Shown piece by piece: positions 2,802 through 33,567 of a DNA stretch of 64,000 nucleotides. The notes under the pieces are model-generated. The model saw nothing but the letters and a program-made list of their open reading frames with translations. It did no database searches and was not told the origin of the DNA. Made by a program: the position numbers and the translations under genes. The first letter of the stretch is position 1, and each line of letters opens with the position of its first letter. Source of the stretch: Acidiphilium multivorum AIU301. Its GTDB lineage: Bacteria; Pseudomonadota; Alphaproteobacteria; Acetobacterales; Acetobacteraceae. The stretch is from contig NC_015178.1 in NCBI RefSeq assembly GCF_000202835.1, positions 186,001-250,000 on the forward strand, in the 5' to 3' direction.

Positions 2802-4029
2802 CAGGGGCTACGCATGAAAATTTCGGGCATAGTTGACGGCATGGAATCGGGTGTGATTCGGGGAGTCTCCTTGAGATTGGGAGACGTGCATGTCGGTGAG
2901 GCGGCTTGTGGAGGAATTTTCGGCGTTGGAAGACCCCCGCTGCGGCGGCAAGGTTGAGCACCGGCTAATTGATATTCTGGTGATTGCGGTGTGCGCGGTG
3001 ATTGCCGGGGCGGAAAGCTGGGAGGATATGGCACTGTATGGCCGTAGCAAGCAGGAATGGCTGGGCACGTTTTTGGCGCTGCCGAACGGCATTCCATCGC
3101 ACGACACCTTCCGGCGTGTGTTCATGCTGATCGATACCGGGCGTTTCGAGGCATGTTTCGAAGCGTGGGCGCGCTCATTCGGGACGACTTTGGACCGGGA
3201 AGTGGTGGCGATTGACGGGAAAACGATCCGCGGCTCGTTTGATCGCAGCCGGGACCAGGCGGCGCTTCACGTTGTGAGTGCATGGGCGAGTGATCGGGGG
3301 CTGGTGCTCGGCCAGCGTCAGGTCGGCGACAAATCGAACGAGATCACCGCGATCCCGGAATTGCTGGATGTGCTGGACATCAAGGGCGCCATTGTCACGC
3401 TGGACGCGATGGGGTGCCAGCGAGCCATCGCGTCCAAAATTCTCGAGCGGGGTGCTGATTATCTCGTCACCCTCAAAGCAAACCAGGGGAAGAAACACAG
3501 CGCCGTGCAGGAGTATTGCGCAACCACCTGCTTCAGCCGCTCACCCGTTGATCGGCCGGTGCATGACGAATTCGATGATGGTCATGGTCGTCTTGTTCGG
3601 CGCCGGGTGTTCGTCTGTCCGGACGCCGTAGCGCTGGAACCGCTGCGCGACTGGCCGGGGTTGAAGAGCGTTCTGGCCGTGGAAACCATCCGCGGCGTCA
3701 ACGGATCCGGCAAGATCGAAGCCGAAATCCGCTACTTCCTGTCCAGCAGCGACGATCAACCCGAAATCCTGGCGAAAGCGATCCGTCAACATTGGCAGAT
3801 CGAGAACAGCCTACACTGGGTGCTCGACGTCACCTTCAACGAAGATCACTGCCGGATCCGGGATCGCAACGCCGTCCAGAACTTCTCCCTGCTTCGCAAG
3901 ATCGCAATCAACCTCGTTCGCCGCCATCAGGCATCAAAGGCCAGTCTCAAGGGGCGCCGCAAAATGGCCGCCTGGGATAACCGTTACATGGAGCAAGTGC
4001 TCACCGGCTTCTTTCATGCGTAACCCCTG
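2802..4029 (+). mobile_element. ISAs1-family insertion sequence, complete
   Basis: The terminal inverted repeats are CAGGGGCTACGCATGAAAA at 2802-2820 and, on the other strand, CAGGGGTTACGCATGAAAG at 4011-4029. The element is 1228 bp. It is flanked by a perfect 10-bp direct repeat CTCCAGACCC at 2792-2801 and 4030-4039, the size expected for ISAs1 elements. It carries one transposase and sits inside higB. A truncated relative lies at 16320-16785. Confidence 0.93.
2890..4023 (+). CDS. ISAs1-family DDE transposase
   Basis: This 377-residue protein is full length for the family. It has the N-terminal DDE-associated domain (VEEFSALEDPRCGGKVEHRL), the first catalytic Asp in VVAIDGKTIRGSFD, the second region TLDAMGCQRAIA, and a C-terminal HWQIENSLHWVLDVTFNEDH segment. 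The stop lies within the right inverted repeat. No frameshift is seen, so the protein may be active. Confidence 0.93.
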   Translation: MSVRRLVEEFSALEDPRCGGKVEHRLIDILVIAVCAVIAGAESWEDMALYGRSKQEWLGTFLALPNGIPSHDTFRRVFMLIDTGRFEACFEAWARSFGTTLDREVVAIDGKTIRGSFDRSRDQAALHVVSAWASDRGLVLGQRQVGDKSNEITAIPELLDVLDIKGAIVTLDAMGCQRAIASKILERGADYLVTLKANQGKKHSAVQEYCATTCFSRSPVDRPVHDEFDDGHGRLVRRRVFVCPDAVALEPLRDWPGLKSVLAVETIRGVNGSGKIEAEIRYFLSSSDDQPEILAKAIRQHWQIENSLHWVLDVTFNEDHCRIRDRNAVQNFSLLRKIAINLVRRHQASKASLKGRRKMAAWDNRYMEQVLTGFFHA

Positions 4030-21248: not shown

Positions 21249-22328
21249 CTTGCCTATCCGGTTGTTACCCACACCCACTAAATGTAGGGTGTGTCCATTC
21301 CCCGGAATAAAGCTCGTCAAAGGTTGGTGCGGCTGCCCTACCCGCGATTCCGAGCAGCGAGCGGAACGCGTTGAAGGGATAGAGGCGCCGGTTGAACCGA
21401 AACGTGAATTCATTGAGGTAGGCTTGTAGATGTTTGGCGCTGACCCCGTGATGGATGCCGTTGATCCAGGTCTTCAGGTTGGTAAAGACCAAGTGGACGA
21501 TCGGCAGGAATTCTTCTGCCACCTCCGGGTCGCCGCATTCGGCGATTGCATGGTGGTCGAACCCGCGCCTTCCGAGACCGGCATAGCCGCTCCAGTCGTC
21601 GGTAACGATCAGCGATCCGGGAGCAACGGCGTTTTCGACGAATCCGCAGAGCGAATTGGCGCTACGGTCGGGGACAACAGCGAGACGAACGCGTCCCGCG
21701 TAGCGACCGTCTTTCCGATTGTCGAGCTTGGTTCCCGGTTTCCGGTGGCGCACCTCCACGGCACAGGCGACGAGAACCTTGTGATGGACACCCCGTCCAT
21801 CGCCTCGGGTTCGTCCTCCAACCCACGTTTCATCCACTTCGACGTGTTCTTGCGGCGTGTCGCCAATCTTGTCGCGCTCGGGGCGCACCATCCCGGCGCG
21901 CAGCTTATGAAGGATGCCGAAGGCGGTCTCGTAGCGCGACAGGCCGAGTTGCCGCTGAAATTGGACGGCCGACATTCCGGGCGTCTGGCTGGCGATCAAG
22001 TAAGCCGCCCAGAACCAAGTCGACAGCGGCGTGTGACTGCGTTCCATAACGGTCCCAGCCATCAGGCTTACGTCTTTGCGACAGGCCCGGCAGCGCAGAA
22101 CGCCCGGGCGCGCCTCGAAACGGAACGGCTCGCCAACGACGCCGCACCTTGGGCAGGCGAACCCTCCATTCCAGCGGGCGCTTTCGAGATAGGCGGCACA
22201 GGCCGCGTCGTTCGGGAAAATACGCTGGAATTCCGGCAGAGACTGCGGGAACGGCAGGTCTTCACGGGCCAGGACATCCATGCCCAACACTAGATCTAGT
22301 AGGTATGGGAGTCAACCGGATAGGCAAG
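21249..22328 (-). mobile_element. IS1595-family insertion sequence, copy 1
   Basis: The 1080-bp element has terminal repeats CTTGCCTATCCGGTTG and is flanked by an exact 8-bp target duplication TTTGATTC (21241-21248 and 22329-22336). The copy at 50431-51510 is in the opposite orientation and its encoded protein is identical over 341 residues. Confidence 0.95.
21265..22290 (-). CDS. IS1595-family (ISXO2-like) transposase, copy 1
   Basis: The 341-residue protein has an N-terminal zinc ribbon (FACPRCGVVGEPFRF and LRCRACRKDVS), then the DDE core with HVEVDETWVGGRTRGDG, SLIVTDDWSGYAGLGRRG and a terminal KTWINGIHHGV..LNEFTFRFNRR block. The start is a GTG at 22290, with an in-frame ATG at 22281. It looks functional. 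Confidence 0.94.
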   Translation of the reverse strand: MLGMDVLAREDLPFPQSLPEFQRIFPNDAACAAYLESARWNGGFACPRCGVVGEPFRFEARPGVLRCRACRKDVSLMAGTVMERSHTPLSTWFWAAYLIASQTPGMSAVQFQRQLGLSRYETAFGILHKLRAGMVRPERDKIGDTPQEHVEVDETWVGGRTRGDGRGVHHKVLVACAVEVRHRKPGTKLDNRKDGRYAGRVRLAVVPDRSANSLCGFVENAVAPGSLIVTDDWSGYAGLGRRGFDHHAIAECGDPEVAEEFLPIVHLVFTNLKTWINGIHHGVSAKHLQAYLNEFTFRFNRRLYPFNAFRSLLGIAGRAAAPTFDELYSGEWTHPTFSGCG

Positions 22329-23589: not shown

Positions 23590-23970
23590 TCAGGCGTCAG
23601 GCGGCACCACCACCCGCCGCAGCCAGGCGACCAGCGGCTCAAAGCTGAAACCGTCCGCTTCATACAGACTGACGATAAAATCGTAAGTCTCATCTGGATC
23701 GGCCTGCACCCCAGCGCCATTGATAACCAGGAAGGCATAGGTGGCAGCAAAAGCCGTGCGTTTATTGCCGTCGAAAAACGGATGATTCTGCGCCAGACTC
23801 TCCCACAAGGCGGCAGCCTCGTCGATCAGATCGGCATAATATCCCGTCTGTGGGCGATACAAGGCCGCCTCCAGCTGGCCAGGGTCACGCACGCCATGAG
23901 CGCCACCGTAGCGATCGATTTGGTCTGCATGGATAGCCAGAACCTCGATGACGGTTAGATAATCCGTCAT
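23590..23970 (-). CDS. doc: Doc-family (Fic-fold) toxin
   Basis: The 126-residue protein has the death-on-curing signature NHPFFDGNKRTA, which binds ATP and catalyses phosphorylation of EF-Tu, and the N-terminal YLTVIEVLAIHADQIDRYGG helix. Doc length is normal (about 125 residues). Its start overlaps the antitoxin stop by four bases. The catalytic His, Asp and Lys/Arg are all present. Confidence 0.94.
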   Translation of the reverse strand: MTDYLTVIEVLAIHADQIDRYGGAHGVRDPGQLEAALYRPQTGYYADLIDEAAALWESLAQNHPFFDGNKRTAFAATYAFLVINGAGVQADPDETYDFIVSLYEADGFSFEPLVAWLRRVVVPPDA

Positions 23971-24197
23971 TCAGCCAGCTTTTTATACAGTGTCCCGAAT
24001 TTTTCATGGCTCGCCTGATAGGCGGCCATCACGTTGGCGCGGGGCCGACCCTGCTTGCGCTTTTCAATGAGGTCGGCGAGCGCCTCATCTACCAGCGCTT
24101 GCAACTGCCGCCCCTCGCTTTGCGCGAGGCGGCGCACCGCGGAGAGAATCTCAGAATTCACCTGAGTCGCGAATTTTTCACGGGTTTGGGCTGCCAT
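23967..24197 (-). CDS. Antitoxin of the Doc module
   Basis: A good ribosome site (TTGGAGA) precedes the ATG at 24197. The 76-residue protein starts MAAQTREKFATQVNSEILSA with a ribbon-helix-helix-like N terminus and has a C-terminal tail (MAAYQASHEKFGTLYKKLAE) suited to fill the Doc active-site groove. It is not a classical Phd/YefM fold, but its position and overlap with doc mark it as the antitoxin. Confidence 0.82.
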   Translation of the reverse strand: MAAQTREKFATQVNSEILSAVRRLAQSEGRQLQALVDEALADLIEKRKQGRPRANVMAAYQASHEKFGTLYKKLAE

Positions 24198-24216
24198 GAT
24201 ACATCTCCAATCTTTC

Positions 24217-24250
24217 CTTGATTTATCATGATGTGTCATGAAATATCAAG
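24217..24250. promoter_or_regulatory. Operator-like dyad of the Doc module
   Basis: Two 15-bp arms, CTTGATTTATCATGA and TCATGAAATATCAAG, match as inverted repeats at 13 of 15 positions and are separated by TGTG. The dyad starts 20 bp upstream of the antitoxin ATG, where antitoxin autoregulation is expected. Confidence 0.7.
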
Positions 24251-24423: not shown

Positions 24424-25812
24424 ATGCGTTCGCTTCGCGCCCGACTCGCGCTGCTCTGGTCGATCTCGCTGATCGCCGCGATCATCGCGGGCGGGCTGAT
24501 CATCGGGCTGTTCCATCAATCGGCGACGGCGAGCCTCGCGCGTGACCGGCAGGTCGCCGCCCGAGCCTGCGATTCGATTGCGCGAGCCTATGGATTCTAC
24601 AGCGCCGGGCTTGGATCGGCGCCGCAGGACGAGGCGTTTCGCAAGGGGCTGAGAGGTGTTGCGGCCTTCGGGCTCTGGCCGTTTCCCGATGTCGCCGGCG
24701 GCATCGTCTCGGGCAGCACGGCACTCGCGTCGATCGGCGTCGATACGCCGCATGACGCGGGCATCTCCACGGCGACCGCGGCAGCGCTGGACGCGGACCA
24801 TCTGGTGCTGCGCCAGCGCGGAGGGTTCGGTGACCGTGCGGTGATCGCCGCCTGCCCACTTGGCAGCCCGGCCGAAGACCTTGCGGGGTTCACCATCGTC
24901 CGGCTCGACCTGCTGCGCACGCCCTTCTCGAAACTTGCCGCCGGCGGCCTGGCCGTGCTGCTGCTCTTCCTTATGGTCTCGGCCTGGTTCCTCACGCGTC
25001 TGGTGCTCGGCTTCTCCCGCCGCCTCGCCGCCGTCGAGGCCGGCCTCGCCACCGACCCCGAAGCAAAACTACCACTGACCGGCGAACCCGATTTTGACCG
25101 GCTGATCGCCGCGTTGAACGGCGCTACCGCCCGCCTCGGCCGCGCCCGCGCGCGCATCGCCGAGCAGGAGAAACTCGCCTCGCTGGGACGGATGGCGGCG
25201 GGGCTGGCGCATGAAATCCGCAATCCCCTGGGCGCGATTCGCCTCCGCGCGGAATCCGGCCTGGCCGGCGACGCCGCACGACGCGGCGCTGCCCTCGACC
25301 GCATCCTCGCGGAATCGGCGCGGCTGGAAAAGCTCACCGGCAAATTGCTGGGCTTCGCCGCCGCGCCCGCGCCGCAGACTGAAGAGGCATCGCTCGCGCA
25401 TCTTTTCGGCGAGGCGCGCGCACCCCTCGAAGAATATGCCGCGGCGAAGGGCGTCACGATCGAAACGAACGATCGGGGCCTCTCCTGGACGCTGGACCCC
25501 GCGCTGACCCTCCGCGCGCTCGACAACCTGCTGCGCAATGCGATCGACGCCTGCGGCGAGGACGATACGGTGCGGCTGACCGCGGCACGCGATGCGGACG
25601 GTCTCACGATTCTCATCGAAGATACCGGGCCAGGAATCGCACCCGGAATCGCGGCCCATCTTTTCGAGCCTTTCGTCACCGGACGGCCGGAAGGAAACGG
25701 GCTCGGCCTTGCCATCGCCCGCGAGATGATCCGCGCCCAGGGCGGCACGCTGGTCCATGACCCATCCGAGCACGGCGCGCGGTTCCGCATAAGGTTCAGG
25801 GGGGTGTCGTGA
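24424..25812 (+). CDS. Sensor histidine kinase (NtrB/ZraS-like)
   Basis: From ATG 24424 the protein has 462 residues. Transmembrane helices lie at about 8-31 (LLWSISLIAAIIAGGLIIGL) and 170-195 (LAVLLLFLMVSAWFLTRLVL), enclosing a periplasmic sensor of about 140 residues. A HAMP-like linker leads to the phospho-acceptor motif AAGLAHEIRNPLGAIRLRA (His about residue 263) and the ATPase domain with NLLRNAIDACGE, IEDTGPGIAPGI and GNGLGLAIAREMI. It phosphorylates the adjacent regulator, with which it overlaps (TGATG). The signal is unknown. The frame is open upstream to 24238, but that extension lacks a ribosome site. Confidence 0.9.
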   Translation: MRSLRARLALLWSISLIAAIIAGGLIIGLFHQSATASLARDRQVAARACDSIARAYGFYSAGLGSAPQDEAFRKGLRGVAAFGLWPFPDVAGGIVSGSTALASIGVDTPHDAGISTATAAALDADHLVLRQRGGFGDRAVIAACPLGSPAEDLAGFTIVRLDLLRTPFSKLAAGGLAVLLLFLMVSAWFLTRLVLGFSRRLAAVEAGLATDPEAKLPLTGEPDFDRLIAALNGATARLGRARARIAEQEKLASLGRMAAGLAHEIRNPLGAIRLRAESGLAGDAARRGAALDRILAESARLEKLTGKLLGFAAAPAPQTEEASLAHLFGEARAPLEEYAAAKGVTIETNDRGLSWTLDPALTLRALDNLLRNAIDACGEDDTVRLTAARDADGLTILIEDTGPGIAPGIAAHLFEPFVTGRPEGNGLGLAIAREMIRAQGGTLVHDPSEHGARFRIRFRGVS

Positions 25813-27182
25813 TGGCGCGGATCGCAGTGATCGACGACGATGCCGGGTTCCGCGCCAGCCTTGCCGAGGCGCTGGATGATTTCGGCCATGACGTCGCCGA
25901 ATTCGCCAGCGCCGATTTGGCCCTGACGGCACTGGCGACGGACCCGGCCGCCCTCGTCTTTCTCGACCTCCGCATGCCAGGCATGGACGGGATCGCCGCG
26001 CTGGAAGCGTTGAAATCGCGCGACAGGGCGCTGCCGGTCGTCGTGCTCACCGCCTACGCGACCGGTGAGAACACGATCGCCGCGATGCGCCTTGGCGCGT
26101 TCGATCATCTGACCAAGCCGGTCGGCCGCGCAGATCTCGAAGCCCTGCGCGACCGGGTGCTTACCGGCACGGCGACAACGTCGGCCCCGGCAGACTCCGT
26201 CGCGCCTGGCGAAATCATCGGCACGAGTCCGGCGATCCGCGAAGTCCAGAAACGGATCGGCCTCGCCGCCTCGGGCCAGGCGACCGTGCTGATCCTTGGC
26301 GAGACCGGCGTCGGCAAGGAACTCGTCGCCCGCGCGATCCACCGGTTCAGCGACCGCGCGTCGCGCCCCTTCGCCGCAGTGAATTGCGCGGCAATCCCCG
26401 CCGATCTGCTGGAGAGCGAATTGTTCGGCCATGAGCGCGGCGCTTTCACCGGCGCAATCGGCGCGAGGCGCGGCCGGTTCCGCGAGGCGGAGGGTGGCAC
26501 GATCTTGCTCGACGAGATCGGCGACATGGCGCCGGCGACCCAGGCGAAGATTTTGCGGGTGCTGGAAGAACGCGAGGTCGTGCCGCTCGGCGGCGCGCCG
26601 GTCGCGATCGATGTGCGGATGATTGCCGCGACCCATCGCGACCTTGCCGAACGCGTGGAGGAAGGCCGGTTCCGGGCCGATCTCTATTACCGCCTCGCCG
26701 TGCTGCCGATCGTCGTGCCGCCGCTACGCGAGCGCGTAGCCGATATCGAGGCGATCGCCCGCCATCTCCTCGCCCGCATCCGCCCGGCCTCGCCGCCGAC
26801 GCTGAGCAAGGCCGCATTGGACTCGCTCTCCGCCTGGCCCTGGCACGGCAATGTCCGCGAATTGCGCAATGTACTCGAACGCGCGGCAAGCCTTGCGCCG
26901 GGACGGGTGATCGATGCGGCCGATCTCGCCCTCGCGCCATCGCCGCGCCAGACCACGTCCCTGCCGCCGCCGCGTCGCCTGGCGGAGACTGTCGCGGATG
27001 CGGAAATCGTCGCGATCCGCGCCGCGCTGATCCGCGCCCGCGGGAATCGCACGGAAGCGGCGCGCGAACTCGGCATCAGCCGCGCCGCGCTCTACGACCG
27101 GCTCAATCGATACGGGCTGACAACGCTGTCGGAAAATCCGACGGAGACTGTCGGCGGATCCGACGAGTCCTCCGTCGTGTAA
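25812..27182 (+). CDS. NtrC-family sigma-54-dependent response regulator
   Basis: This 456-residue protein has a receiver domain (IAVIDDDAGF; phospho-acceptor Asp in FLDLRMPGMDG), an AAA+ domain with Walker A GETGVGKE, the sigma-54 contact loop GAFTGA, and Walker B GTILLDEIGD, and a Fis-type helix-turn-helix (NRTEAARELGISRAALYDRL). It should be phosphorylated by the overlapping kinase and activate sigma-54 promoters from enhancer sites. Two such dyads lie within its own 3' coding end, and a -24/-12 promoter follows 35 bp after its stop, facing the exported protein gene. Confidence 0.94.
   Translation: MARIAVIDDDAGFRASLAEALDDFGHDVAEFASADLALTALATDPAALVFLDLRMPGMDGIAALEALKSRDRALPVVVLTAYATGENTIAAMRLGAFDHLTKPVGRADLEALRDRVLTGTATTSAPADSVAPGEIIGTSPAIREVQKRIGLAASGQATVLILGETGVGKELVARAIHRFSDRASRPFAAVNCAAIPADLLESELFGHERGAFTGAIGARRGRFREAEGGTILLDEIGDMAPATQAKILRVLEEREVVPLGGAPVAIDVRMIAATHRDLAERVEEGRFRADLYYRLAVLPIVVPPLRERVADIEAIARHLLARIRPASPPTLSKAALDSLSAWPWHGNVRELRNVLERAASLAPGRVIDAADLALAPSPRQTTSLPPPRRLAETVADAEIVAIRAALIRARGNRTEAARELGISRAALYDRLNRYGLTTLSENPTETVGGSDESSVV
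27128..27164. promoter_or_regulatory. Paired enhancer dyads inside the regulator gene
   Basis: Two 15-bp palindromes, GTCGGAAAATCCGAC (27128-27142) and GTCGGCGGATCCGAC (27150-27164), share the arms GTCGG/CCGAC with a 5-base centre. Their centres are 22 bp apart, two helical turns, so dimers would bind on the same DNA face. They lie about 60-85 bp upstream of the -24 element, the normal position of sigma-54 enhancers. Confidence 0.72.
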
Positions 27183-27217
27183 CTCCCGAAACCCTTGCCG
27201 TTCAACGCGTTATGGTT

Positions 27218-27233
27218 TGGCACGCCGTGTGCA
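27218..27233 (+). promoter_or_regulatory. Sigma-54 promoter of the exported protein gene
   Basis: TGGCACGCCGTGTGCA has a perfect -24 half (TGGCAC) and a near-consensus -12 half (GTGC for TTGC) at correct spacing. It lies between the sigma-54 activator gene and the exported protein gene, 47 bp before the start codon. Confidence 0.72.
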
Positions 27234-27279
27234 GAGCATCAGGGCGACGGATCATACCGTCGACATCATGGAGATACGC

Positions 27280-28029
27280 ATGACACAACTGAAGCTTATG
27301 CTCGCCGCCGCCACCGCCACGACGATGCTCGCCACCGGCGCGGCAAGCGCCGCAACCCATGGCAACCGGGCGGCGCTCAAGGACCTGCCGACCTATTCCG
27401 GAACGGTGGCGCATTTCACCATCACGCCGCGCGGCGCGATCGACGGGATGATTCTCTCGAACGGCACCGAGATCCTGTTCCCGCCCTATCTCTCCACGGA
27501 GATCGCCTATGCGGTGAAGCAGGGCGACCAGGTCACGGTGCGCGGCCTGAAAGCGGCCGGCGAACCCGTAATACGCGGTGTCACGATCAACGATGCGACG
27601 ACGCATCAGCGCGTGGTCGATAACGGCCCGCCAGCCGGTTTCGGTCCGCATCACCATGACCGCGCGACGCGGATGATGGCGGATGGCAAGGTCGCGCAGG
27701 TTCTCTACGATCCGGGCGGGCGCCGCAACGGCCTGCTGCTCGAGAACGGCACGGTGCTGCATCTGCCGCCGCCGGAATTCGGCAACCAGAAGATCGCGGC
27801 ACTCCTGAAACCGGGCGCAACCGTCGCCGCAGTCGGCGCGGGCACGGCGAATGCGCTGGGCAAGGCGGTGATGGTGCGCGCGATCGGCCCATCCTTCGAC
27901 GCGCTGACCCGGATCGCGCCGCCGCACCGCCCGCACCGTTTCAAGCCTCGCGGACCGATGGCGGGACCGGGCGCCTGGCACCATGCGGAATGGCAGCCCA
28001 GACCTTCGCAGCCGGCGCCCGCAAAATAA
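27280..28029 (+). CDS. Exported two-repeat protein, probable target of the adjacent sigma-54 regulator
   Basis: The ATG at 27280 follows GGAG. The 249-residue protein has a signal peptide (LMLAAATATTMLATGAASAA) and two similar units of about 80 residues: GMILSNGTEILFPPYLSTEI with GDQVTVRGL, and GLLLENGTVLHLPPPEFGNQ with GATVAAVGAG. The strand pattern resembles OB-fold modules of periplasmic proteins. The tail is rich in His, Pro and Arg (HHAEWQPRPSQPAPAK), possibly metal-binding. It is preceded by a sigma-54 promoter and followed by a hairpin terminator, so it forms its own transcript. Function unknown. Confidence 0.75.
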   Translation: MTQLKLMLAAATATTMLATGAASAATHGNRAALKDLPTYSGTVAHFTITPRGAIDGMILSNGTEILFPPYLSTEIAYAVKQGDQVTVRGLKAAGEPVIRGVTINDATTHQRVVDNGPPAGFGPHHHDRATRMMADGKVAQVLYDPGGRRNGLLLENGTVLHLPPPEFGNQKIAALLKPGATVAAVGAGTANALGKAVMVRAIGPSFDALTRIAPPHRPHRFKPRGPMAGPGAWHHAEWQPRPSQPAPAK

Positions 28030-28056
28030 CGGGACGACAGCTTCTCCACATCGAAA

Positions 28057-28085
28057 CGCGGCCGGGACATCACCTTCCGGCCGCG
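28057..28085 (+). terminator. Hairpin terminator after the exported protein gene
   Basis: Perfect 9-bp GC-rich arms CGCGGCCGG and CCGGCCGCG enclose an 11-base loop, with complementary CGAAA/TTTCG sequences further out. It lies 28 bp after the stop; there is no long T run. Confidence 0.65.
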
Positions 28086-28559: not shown

Positions 28560-30122
28560 ATGGCAAAGACTCTTTCGGAGGATCTGCGGGGCCGTGTGGT
28601 GGCGGATCGCCGAGTTCAGGAGGCCATTACTCTCGTCTTCGACAAGGTGGCTGAGCTCGGCAGCGCCCGACAGGCTCTGCTCTGGTTCCTGGAGCACAGT
28701 CTGGATCTGCCGGCCCGACGCGCCAATGGCGATGTGGTCTGGCGCAGGCCGACCTACGCCACCATCCACCGCATGATCGAGAACCCGGTCTACGGCGGCG
28801 CCTACGCCTATGGTAAGACTCGCGTGGCGCCGCGGCACGACGCGATCGTTCCGCGATCCGGCAGTCGTCGCAAGCGGCGCGGCGACTGGCTGGCGCTGAA
28901 GCCAGGGGCGCATGAAGGCTATGTCAGTTGGGAACGGGCAGAGGCGATCCGCACGATGGTCAGCGACAACATCCCTGCGAGCCGGCATCACGGAGCGCCC
29001 AAGCATGGCGATGCTTTGCTGGCCGGCCTGCTGCGTTGCCGGCGCTGTGGCCGCAAGCTGACGGTCCGTTATACTGGGACCAATCACAACATCCCCCGCT
29101 ATTCCTGCTGGCGGGGCCTGCTCGACAATGGCGAGCCGCGCTGCATCGCTTTCGGCGGCCTGCGGGTCGACGACGCCATCGAGGAGGCATTGCTGCGGGT
29201 CGTCGAACCCGGCGCCATCGCCGCCGCCGCCGCAGAGGCGCAAGCCGCCGGCCGGCGAGACCAGGTGCGCGAGGCTCTGGTGCGCGATCTCGAAGCGGCC
29301 CGCTACCAGGCCGCTCGGGCATTCCGGCAATATGACGCCGCTGATCCTGCGAACCGGCTTGTTGCCGCGGAGCTGGAGACGCGATGGAACCGCGCCCTCG
29401 CGCAGGCCGCCGAGGTCGAGGCAAGGATTGCCGAGCACGATGCCGCCGCCCCAAAATCGTCTTCCTTGGCGGTGCTCGACGCCGCCAGGCTTGGTACGAA
29501 CCTTCGGGCGGTCTGGGCGGCGCCGACAACGGATTCCCGGCTCAAGAAGCGTATCGTCCGCACCGTCATCCATGAAATGGTTGCCGATATCGATGACACA
29601 GCCTCCGAGATCGTTCTGCTGGTCCACTGGATTGGCGGTGCCCACACAGAGCTTCGCCTGCCGACGCGGCGCCGCGGACAGCGCAACAGCACGGCCTCCG
29701 AGATCATCGCCGCGGTGCGCCATCTCGCGCTCATCGCCTCCGACGACCTGATTGCTGGCATCCTCAATCGGAACCGCCTGCTGACCGGCCATGGCAACCG
29801 CTGGACCCGCGAGCGGGTCACAGCCCTCCGTTCGCATCACAAGATCCCGGTCTTCCGCCCCGCGCCCGACGGCATCGAACCTCAGCTCAACCTTACCGAT
29901 GCCGCACGCCTCCTTGGCGTGGCGCCCAAGGCCCTCAGGCTCGCCGCCGAGGCCGGAGTGATCGAGGGCGACCACCCTTTGCCCGACGGCCCGTGGATCT
30001 TCCGCCGGTCCGAACTCGCCAAGCCAGCCGCCGCGCAGATCACTCATCGCGCACGGCAGAACCCCAAACACCCCGCGGGATCACACACCGATCAGAAAAA
30101 CCTATCCCTCTCAATAACATAA
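28560..30122 (+). CDS. Chimeric large serine recombinase lacking its catalytic domain
   Basis: The first ~13 codons ([13 protein letters not shown]) are the start of an IS630 transposase, with ribosome site, joined in frame to a large serine recombinase from about residue 16 ([20 protein letters not shown]). What follows is the recombinase domain, a zinc ribbon ([21 protein letters not shown]), a coiled-coil region and a C-terminal helix-turn-helix ([20 protein letters not shown]). The N-terminal resolvase domain with the nucleophilic Ser is absent, so the 520-residue product may bind attachment sites but cannot recombine. It was probably made by IS630 insertion and deletion. Confidence 0.8.
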
Positions 30123-31552: not shown

Positions 31553-32206
31553 CTAAAAAGCCACCCCAGCGCCGAGTGTCGCAACCAGAGCATTCCTCGG
31601 CCCTCCATTGGCATGAATGATCCATTGCAAGTCGGGCTCGATGATCATTCGATCTGGCAAATGGGCCACAAAGGCAACCTCTTCCGTTGTTTCGGCCATG
31701 GTACGAGCAGTGCTGAACCAGGCTCTTGCAATTCCAAAGGTTAGCGCATCACGGCGGTGCTGAGCCCAGAAGCCGGAAAGTTTTCCTCCAAAACCGAGGT
31801 AACTGGAGATAGGACCTTGCGATTCTGGATTTCCAGCGACTTGTGCGAAAAATCCGAGACGGTAACGTTTGATCGGAATATTTCTCCACTCAGCAATACC
31901 GTAGACGCCACCAACGGACGGGCCGAGTGTCGAACGAAGCCTCCGATGCTGCCAGTAGTGCCATACACCTGCTTTGACCGTAATTTCCCGGGCCGCATTA
32001 CGCCACGTCCGATCTACCTCGAGGAACCCGATGGCACCCCGATCGAATGGCTGATCAAATGTCTGGACCGGGTCACCCTGATACAGGCCAACACGCCACA
32101 CGAGTGACCGTGCCTTAAGCCATATCATAAATCCGGCGCTGGTATGGGAGAAGCCTGCAACGTTGTCGCCGATTGTCGGCGTCAAGTTAAAAGACAGGTT
32201 CTGCAA
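31553..32206 (-). pseudogene. oprB: OprB-family carbohydrate porin, C-terminal part
   Basis: The ~217 residues show alternating beta strands and OprB features: GFFAQVAGNPESQGPISSYL, LTFGIARAWFSTA, and the terminal IIEPDLQWIIHANGGPRNAL ending in GAGVAF with the C-terminal Phe used for outer-membrane assembly. OprB porins take up sugars across the outer membrane. The N-terminal half and signal peptide are missing; the break lies next to the IS256 element whose end is at 32259. Confidence 0.75.
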
Positions 32207-32258: not shown

Positions 32259-33567
32259 GGTGTAGCTGAAGCGGCCAATGGTCACGCGGCGACGGTGGAA
32301 ATTCGTGGTGTATCGGCATCGATGGCGGGTGCCATGAGTTCGACCATTCCCTCGATCTGCATATAGCGGTTCTGTGTTTGCCATTCGTCGTTGGCCTCGA
32401 GCAGCACGGCCCCGATCAGGCGGATGATCGAACCTTCATTGGGAAAGATGCCGACGACATCGGCGCGGCGCTTGACCTCCTTGTTCAGGCGTTCGAGCGG
32501 ATTCGTCGAGTGAATTTTGGTTCGGTGCTGGGCGGGAAAGTCCATGTGCGCCAGCACGTCGGTTTCACTGTCGTCGATGAACGCGCCAAGTTTTGGCCAT
32601 TTGCCCCGGAGCTGGTCGGCCACATGGCGCAGGGTCTGGCTGGCACTGACGCGATCCGGCTGGATAAACGCCTGACGCAACGCTGCAGACACCATGCTCT
32701 GCTGCCCCTTCGGCACATAGGACAAGGCGTTGCGCATCCAGTGAACGCGGCATCTTTGCCAGGATGCCCCCATCACCCGGCGGATCGCCGCCTTCAACCC
32801 TTCATGAGCATCGGAGATCACCAGTTTCACCTCACGCAACCCACGGCGGACCAAGCTCTTGAGAAAGGTCGACCAGAAGGTCTCCGCCTCGGACGGGCCG
32901 ATGTGCAGGCCGACGATCTCGCGCCGACCGTCGGTGTTCACCGCCACTGCGATTATCGCTGCAACTGAGACGATCCGCCCACCTTCGCGCTGCTTGAGAT
33001 AGGTCGCATCCAACCACAGATACGGCCACTCGCCGGCGAGTGGCCGGTCGAGGAAGGCGTTCACCCTCTCATCGATGTCCTTGCACAGTTTCGAGACCGT
33101 GCTCTTGCTGATCCCCGTCAGCCCCATGGCCTGCACCAGCTCGTCTACCCGCCGGGTCGAGACGCCGCCAATCCAGGCTTCCTGGATGACCGCGGCCAGC
33201 GCCTTCTCCAGGTCCGGCGAGCTTCCAGGAACGGCGGGAAGTAGCTCCCCTGCCGCAGCTTCGGGATCCGAAGCTGCAAGCTGCCAAGCCGCGTGTCCAA
33301 TGCGCGTTCCCGGTAGCCGTTGCGATAGGTCGCGCGCTCGCCGCTGCGCTCGTAGCGGCTGGCGCCGATCAGCCCATCCACATCCGTCTCCATCAGCAGT
33401 TGAACCACCGCCTCCGCGACGCTGCGCAGAAAATCGCCGTCCCCGGCTTTGGCCAGTAGCTCAGCCAGTGGTAATCTATCTTCGGTCATCGGGTTCTCCA
33501 GGCTTCAGGTTGAAGTCTCGCAACTCCACCATAGCCGACTGATCCGATGGCCACCTCAAACTACACC
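32259..33567 (-). mobile_element. IS256-family insertion sequence with frameshifted transposase
   Basis: The ends read GGTGTAGCTGAAGCGGCCAA (32259 onward) and, on the other strand from 33567, GGTGTAGTTTGAGGTGGCCA. No target duplication was found, consistent with later deletion or recombination. It adjoins the truncated oprB on one side and IS21 on the other. Confidence 0.75.
32282..33489 (-). pseudogene. IS256-family transposase, frameshifted
   Basis: The N-terminal part from ATG 33489 reads LAELLAKAGDGDFLRSVAEA and YERSGERATYRNGYRERALD. Near 33215 a one-base shift is needed to continue as EKALAAVIQEAWIGGVSTRR and MGLTGISKSTVSKLCKDIDE. The second part holds catalytic residues (WPYLWLDATYLKQREGG, LVISDAHEGLKAAIRRV) and ends normally. 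A sequencing error cannot be excluded. Confidence 0.88.

Follow-up and report, generated by a model that had tools for sequence, protein, structure and literature searches.

A putative dedicated sigma-54 two-component module with paired sites at the end of its activator gene in Acidiphilium multivorum AIU301

The 64-kb stretch of DNA analysed here (the window; Acidiphilium multivorum AIU301, contig NC_015178.1, positions 186,001 to 250,000 of the forward strand) very probably carries a dedicated sigma-54 two-component module, made up of a putative sensor histidine kinase, an NtrC-type activator, a pair of dyads to which the activator would bind, a -24/-12 promoter and, as the target, a gene for an exported protein. 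The regulatory side is well supported by comparison: the gene order, the spacing of the dyads and their 89–91 bp distance from the promoter recur in relatives, and the sites are missing where the activator is missing. The ligand and the function of the module we infer. More tentatively, this may be a widespread, hitherto undescribed envelope-defence module, often including transporters, in which the tail of the activator is dual-coding, its codons forming its own enhancer, with a geometry locked at 22 bp between the dyads and 90 +/- 1 bp to the promoter.

The kinase, activator and exported protein genes in the window

The kinase (24424–25812, + strand, 462 amino acids) was recognised by its Pfam matches to HisKA (1.3e-10; phosphoacceptor position His263) and HATPase_c (7.5e-20). 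Two N-terminal transmembrane segments, read from the sequence, flank a periplasmic domain with two conserved cysteines, Cys49 and Cys144; the pair is present in 35 of 37 aligned kinases and both residues are absent in the other two. The adjoining gene (25812–27182, + strand) encodes an NtrC-type sigma-54 response regulator of 456 amino acids, assigned from Pfam, NCBIfam and motifs, with a receiver domain (Asp52), an AAA+ sigma-54 interaction domain carrying GAFTGA (residue 210) and a Fis-type helix-turn-helix (HTH). The two genes overlap at TGATG (stop 25810–25812, ATG 25812–25814), as a model reading the sequence alone had reported (the original prediction). The 4.2-Mb genome has a single-copy match to the sigma-54 gene.

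The activator ends in a short C-terminal tail after the HTH, and the codons of this tail are the putative enhancer DNA. The GTCGG-N5-CCGAC dyads that had been noticed there proved to be the only two matches to that pattern in the window, both in the last 55 bp of the activator open reading frame (ORF): the upstream dyad GTCGGAAAATCCGAC (27128–27142, + strand), a candidate activator site on the basis of the pattern search and its conservation in relatives, and the downstream dyad GTCGGCGGATCCGAC (27150–27164, + strand), a second candidate site centred 22 bp from the first. Two matches anywhere were reached in 1 of 100 shuffles, and a first-order estimate puts the chance that 64 kb would hold a dyad pair with a given spacing at ~4e-7 (~2e-5 over 40 spacings); the pair is far beyond chance. 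With up to two mismatches allowed, paired dyads occur once in the whole 4.2-Mb genome, making the exported gene the only target found in it and suggesting that in this lineage the unit probably serves that gene alone.

A candidate sigma-54 -24/-12 promoter, TGGCACGCCGTGTGCA, is present where it had been predicted (27218–27233, + strand), 90 bp from the start of the dyad pair. By itself, however, it is no better than chance (seven one-mismatch promoter sites observed versus 5.5 expected); it becomes credible because its fixed distance from the dyads is conserved in relatives. The gene that follows (27280–28029, + strand) encodes a protein of 249 amino acids that we regard as exported from its signal-like N-terminus, read from the sequence. 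Beyond it lies the perfect 10-bp inverted repeat of a possible terminator (28056–28065/28077–28086, + strand, 11-nt loop); the repeat predicted here was found, but its T run is weak rather than clean, and it is only a plausible terminator.

Conservation and geometry of the sites

In a genus sample of 13 genomes, the exported protein occurs in eight, and orthologues of the activator (67–68 %) and kinase (52–56 %) occur in the same five. Paired dyads (up to two mismatches) were found once in each of the five activator-bearing genomes and in none of the other eight. Four relatives keep the gene order, the sites and the promoter, with the dyads 22 bp apart at the end of the activator gene and TTGGCACG-N4-NTGCA downstream of them. 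No dyad pair was found in G003, G005 or G007, genus genomes having the exported gene and no activator, and G003 retains only the -24 half of the promoter.

Across 299 Acetobacteraceae genomes, the exported protein was matched in about half (144) and the activator in 62, as a single copy each. The figure of 62 is an undercount, as five candidates per genome were scored, and G175, G051 and G252 show partial activator matches beside the exported gene outside this set. The co-occurrence expected from the original prediction was borne out: 58 of the 62 activator genomes have the exported gene, directly downstream on the same strand in 51 and elsewhere in seven (four have no match), compared with 86 of the 237 other genomes (Fisher p 2.7e-17, kinship ignored). 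Among 24 family loci the activator is present in 20, three of these being short matches of 62–101 amino acids. Homologues lacking the regulator, which had been named as evidence against the unit, do therefore exist (the 86 of 237); the regulatory link nevertheless stands, since all seven such exported genes inspected have no dyad pair, with 4–6 of 12 letters wrong at best. These seven come from eight genomes without a strong activator match, G037 being left out.

A search for the full geometry (up to three mismatches) returned 31 sites in 29 of the 299 genomes, against two matches for the reversed pattern. Twenty-nine is a lower bound, as the pattern misses 21-bp pairs and promoters at 89 or 91 bp (for example in G010). 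Compared by hand, 26 of the 31 sites lie no more than 300 bp upstream of an exported-protein homologue on the same strand. The remaining five are in G061 (two), G268, where the site adjoins the activator at a contig end, G053, and G155, where a site with three mismatches is probably due to chance.

The seven genomes with the exported gene elsewhere are G053, G162, G269, G204, G221, G268 and G077, all but the last of which were inspected. In G053, G162 and G269 the exported gene, on a contig apart from the activator, keeps a 21-bp pair with the promoter 88–89 bp on, and in G204 (L025) the promoter of the distant gene follows a 21-bp pair at 100 bp, roughly one turn of the helix more than the usual 90. 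G204 and G269 each have a second exported-protein match on a further contig, while the separation in G221 and G268 looks like the result of contig breaks.

Outside this sample, a plain protein scan of a named-genome contig collection found no relatives, and a scan seeded with 11 exported proteins of the family yielded 54 loci. Their hosts are Acetobacteraceae and other Rhodospirillales metagenome-assembled genomes (MAGs), Bradyrhizobium, Methylobacterium, Roseomonas, Xanthomonas, Rhodanobacter, Paraburkholderia, Caballeronia, Variovorax and its kin, and one MAG each from Steroidobacter, the verrucomicrobia and Obscuribacterales. The genes for kinase, NtrC-type activator and exported protein follow one another in this order in Acetobacteraceae, Bradyrhizobium, Methylobacterium, Burkholderiales, Xanthomonas and the last two MAGs. 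With neighbouring genes scored by direct tblastn, the activator was found in 47 of the 54 loci and kinase plus activator in 45; L061 and L063 have an activator piece at a contig edge, and no activator was seen in the loci L076, L080, L082, L085 and L093. The most distant copy, in the Obscuribacterales MAG (L107), combines an activator of only 39 % identity, a kinase lacking both conserved cysteines, two exported proteins, and anion and drug/metabolite transporter (DMT) family transporters.

We compared the geometry in loci with a readable activator 3′ end, of which 86 were available and 71 distinct (exact duplicates dropped, close relatives remaining). Exact GTC-N9-GAC pairs are spaced 22 bp apart in 44 of the 71 loci and 21 bp in five others, and none was found at the 19 other spacings within 15–35 bp. 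One mismatch allowed, 46 of the 71 have a pair at 22 bp, versus 0–5 at any other spacing. A promoter match follows in 43 of these 46, and the distance from the start of the pair to TGG, for which 61–129 bp was allowed, is 89 bp in 5, 90 bp in 27 and 91 bp in 11. In 41 distinct sequences the -24/-12 elements and the inner dyad letters are partly fixed and the loop is free; as the search required the half-sites, only the inner positions and loops of the dyads are informative there.

That the enhancer would lie within the activator gene, as originally proposed, turned out to be usual and not universal. In 37 of the 43 loci the pair is inside the ORF, in three it straddles the stop and in three it follows the stop (first in-frame stop); the reading frame over the pair is identical in all 40 overlapping loci, and the three post-stop pairs are in other frames. 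Such constancy would also be expected if the motif were kept solely through a conserved C-terminal peptide of the activator and were no binding site. We rejected this explanation, which we hold to be very improbable, since in some loci the pair is retained beyond the ORF, and in others it precedes exported genes that have no activator gene nearby; the pair is also missing from the seven inspected exported genes where the activator is absent, and many activators of the family stop directly after the HTH, without a tail. Our reading is that an ancestral activator was extended in frame over an enhancer, which would explain why the enhancer lies inside the activator gene, and we infer that selection acts on the enhancer DNA.

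Proposed mechanism and competing explanations

In the proposed mechanism, the kinase would sense a periplasmic signal through the domain bearing the conserved cysteine pair, autophosphorylate at His263 and pass the phosphate to Asp52 of the activator, which would then bind both dyads as an in-phase pair, centred near -109 and -87 relative to a predicted start at ~27244, and its AAA+ GAFTGA domain would open the sigma-54 promoter at 27218–27233, allowing transcription of the downstream gene. The exported protein may act in the periplasm by binding a small molecule, a toxic metal ion or damaged parts of the envelope; it may in addition dampen the kinase, in the manner of ZraP from the ZraPSR system of Escherichia coli and Salmonella.

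We predict two oligonucleotide/oligosaccharide-binding (OB) folds in tandem for the exported protein, at about residues 36–113 and 129–208, with histidines in the linker and tail. A structure model is beta-rich with two OB-like repeats, its VIA-align comparison bearing mostly on the first. No Pfam or NCBIfam family matched above cut-off, and no convincing match came from a sequence search of the PDB (best E 0.034). Cuticle_1, an arthropod family, is matched by relatives of the exported protein (18 of 29 family members, best E 6e-6), and an RXLR Pfam match to the window protein (E 0.18, below cut-off, residues 3–27) was dismissed as a chance match in the signal region. The tail is often rich in His and Met: across 29 members these account for 196 of its 952 residues, against 217 of 4665 in the core.

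Envelope protection or detoxification is the most likely function, by analogy with ZraPSR and from the transporters encoded in relatives. A major facilitator superfamily (MFS) and/or an ArsB/CitMHS-like transporter occurs in 20 of the 54 loci, 19 of which also have the activator, suggesting removal of a toxic solute. On three plasmids, of Bradyrhizobium (L109), Caballeronia (L110) and Methylocystis (L111), the module is accompanied by both MFS and ArsB/CitMHS-like transporters, with the variable addition of a metallophosphoesterase, a YdcZ-type DMT, NhaA or a CHASE3 protein; a Methylocapsa plasmid record has the exported protein with no kinase or activator among its listed genes. Five of 19 plasmid records were inspected, the Burkholderia cenocepacia record having no gene table there. 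The window genome holds only the exported-protein arm of the module. An AYAFPTY-like motif that the alignment revealed in kinases of the transporter loci L081, L087, L089, L092, L096, L100, L106, L107 and L111 is absent from the window kinase, suggesting that the signal sensed may differ among loci; the motif is also present in two loci in which no transporter was found, L071 and L086.

These transporters bear on whether the exported protein is the only output, as originally claimed. The claim fits the window genome, where the exported gene is the sole target found, and does not carry over to the 20 transporter loci. The activator could accordingly be a broader envelope-stress regulator that controls the exported gene along with other targets having weaker or unpaired sites; single or degenerate sites would escape our searches. 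In G053 the sites after the activator (L151:7334-8655) precede an MFS gene, its product 47 % identical to the MFS protein of the Bradyrhizobium operon, and the exported gene has a separate set. In G061 (L149:62-3700) the set of dyads and promoter that follows the activator (3018) lies before a gene for a small secreted protein, presumably UrcA-like judging by eye, and the exported gene has another set of its own at 3619, spaced 21 bp. Of the two full-geometry sites of G061, one is ~700 bp upstream of the exported gene; the other, a two-mismatch set at 62, is ~55 bp before the kinase match and may reflect autoregulation there. Against this broader role, each of the five genus genomes with paired dyads has them at a single place, two full-geometry sites were found in only two of the 29 family genomes, and no homologue of the MFS gene was found in the window genome (best matches 23–27 % identity over partial length). 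We therefore think it unlikely that the exported gene is merely one target among several. In Roseomonas nepalensis (L088), which has two divergent exported genes, each strand carries one dyad pair with a promoter, at spacings of 22 and 21 bp.

We give a similarly low probability to the possibility that the exported protein serves mainly as a periplasmic feedback inhibitor of the kinase and not as a stress effector. ZraP is reportedly both a chaperone and a repressor of ZraSR, and the position of the exported gene at the end of the kinase–activator run would suit such a role, but the protein occurs in many genomes without an activator orthologue and must have some use of its own there.

Several observations weigh against the dedicated module itself. 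The -12 half of the window promoter is imperfect, with G in place of the consensus first T, and L031, L086 and L105 have an exact pair but gave no promoter match. Twenty-two of the 71 loci, including the Variovorax-type and Obscuribacterales loci, have no exact 21- or 22-bp pair in the stretch searched, and several of these show only looser sites by eye. The distinct loci include close relatives, and the fixed spacing could partly reflect shared descent. The reversed control pattern, too, had one match among the genus genomes (G005), and the exported protein occurs without the module in many genomes. As for its ligand, the case for a metal is weak: six of the 29 tails, some of them very short, have no or almost no His or Met, the tail of the window protein has only five among 35 residues, and OB-folds have many kinds of ligand.

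Should the dedicated, dual-coding module hold, the regulator and its target site would travel as one piece of DNA in most lineages. What was an observation in one window would become a regulon with a site model, an exact geometry and targets across several bacterial classes, for which genomes without the activator serve as natural controls. The rigid enhancer–promoter distance offers a clean case for asking how strict the DNA geometry of sigma-54 activation is, and as the exported protein also occurs in Rhizobiales and Burkholderiales, its ligand would name a stress response of many soil and acid-loving bacteria.

Mobile DNA flanks the unit. Upstream are two PEP-CTERM proteins (PF07589; 19633–20343 and 22442–23131), in a stretch parts of which match Acidiphilium and Acidithiobacillus plasmids at about 94–95 %, and a segment (21249–22328) with 100 % identity to the IS1595-type ISAcr1 of an Acidiphilium cryptum plasmid. 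Divergent from the kinase is a Fic/DOC-family gene (23590–24239, - strand; PF02661, 1.2e-16). It stands behind a small gene that matches an antitoxin ribbon-helix-helix below threshold, and the two are likely a toxin–antitoxin pair. Downstream are parts of a recombinase (28560–30122) and of a Mutator-type transposase (32282–33136), and an ORF (31553–32206, - strand) that matches only the C-terminal third of the OprB porin (profile positions 251–368 of 372) and is probably a gene remnant.

Comparison with known systems

We recognised no publication describing this module or its function in the open-access PubMed Central (PMC) literature, to which our search was confined. The statement in the original prediction that few such units have been described is overstated, however: in the parts of the sources seen, ZraR is placed among the conditional single-target regulators, zraP being its sole target in that screen, alongside other published single-target regulators (PMC8249747), although the same passage cites 25 further ZraR targets from chromatin immunoprecipitation sequencing (PMC8249747, PMC4987338). 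ZraPSR is thus a known example of a dedicated sigma-54 two-component unit whose target is periplasmic (PMC8249747, PMC4987338).

Several other systems invite comparison. GlrR/GlrK (QseF/QseE) and other NtrC-family regulators share the protein architecture, and the GlrR sites, given as TGTC-N10-GACA in the part of the source seen (PMC4987338), resemble GTC-N9-GAC; GlrR, however, controls the small RNA glmY (PMC4987338), and our activator scores 333 bits against a GlrR model cut-off of 763. PrsK/PrsR of PEP-CTERM systems is likewise a kinase with an NtrC-type regulator, and PEP-CTERM proteins lie near the unit in the window. We rejected PEP-CTERM regulation because the scores fall short (PrsK 62 versus 300 bits, PrsR 339 versus 503) and the exported protein has no PEP-CTERM match. 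Periplasmic DUF5666/OB-fold proteins are similar in the predicted two-OB-fold arrangement and through one distant homologue, from Caballeronia, with a sub-threshold match to PF18914 (DUF5666; 20.8 bits versus a cut-off of 27); neither the window protein nor 28 relatives matched PF18914.

E. coli is known to have sigma-54 sites within genes, as described in the part of the source seen (PMC4591121). Those are sigma-54 binding sites or promoters, whereas here it is the putative enhancer that is intragenic. The closest parallel is ZraPSR, which is also a sigma-54-dependent two-component system with the gene of a periplasmic protein next to it as main target. It differs in that zraP, a divergent gene, codes for a zinc-binding chaperone, whereas the target here lies downstream in the same direction, encodes a predicted tandem OB-fold protein and is served by sites that usually lie inside the activator gene. 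Neither the activator (360 bits, cut-off 760) nor the kinase (108 bits, cut-off 479) passes the ZraR and ZraS equivalog models, and the exported protein, beta-rich in its model with two OB-like repeats and matching no NCBIfam family, is not of the ZraP type. The best reading by analogy is accordingly that of a module for envelope stress or detoxification that resembles ZraPSR but descends separately.

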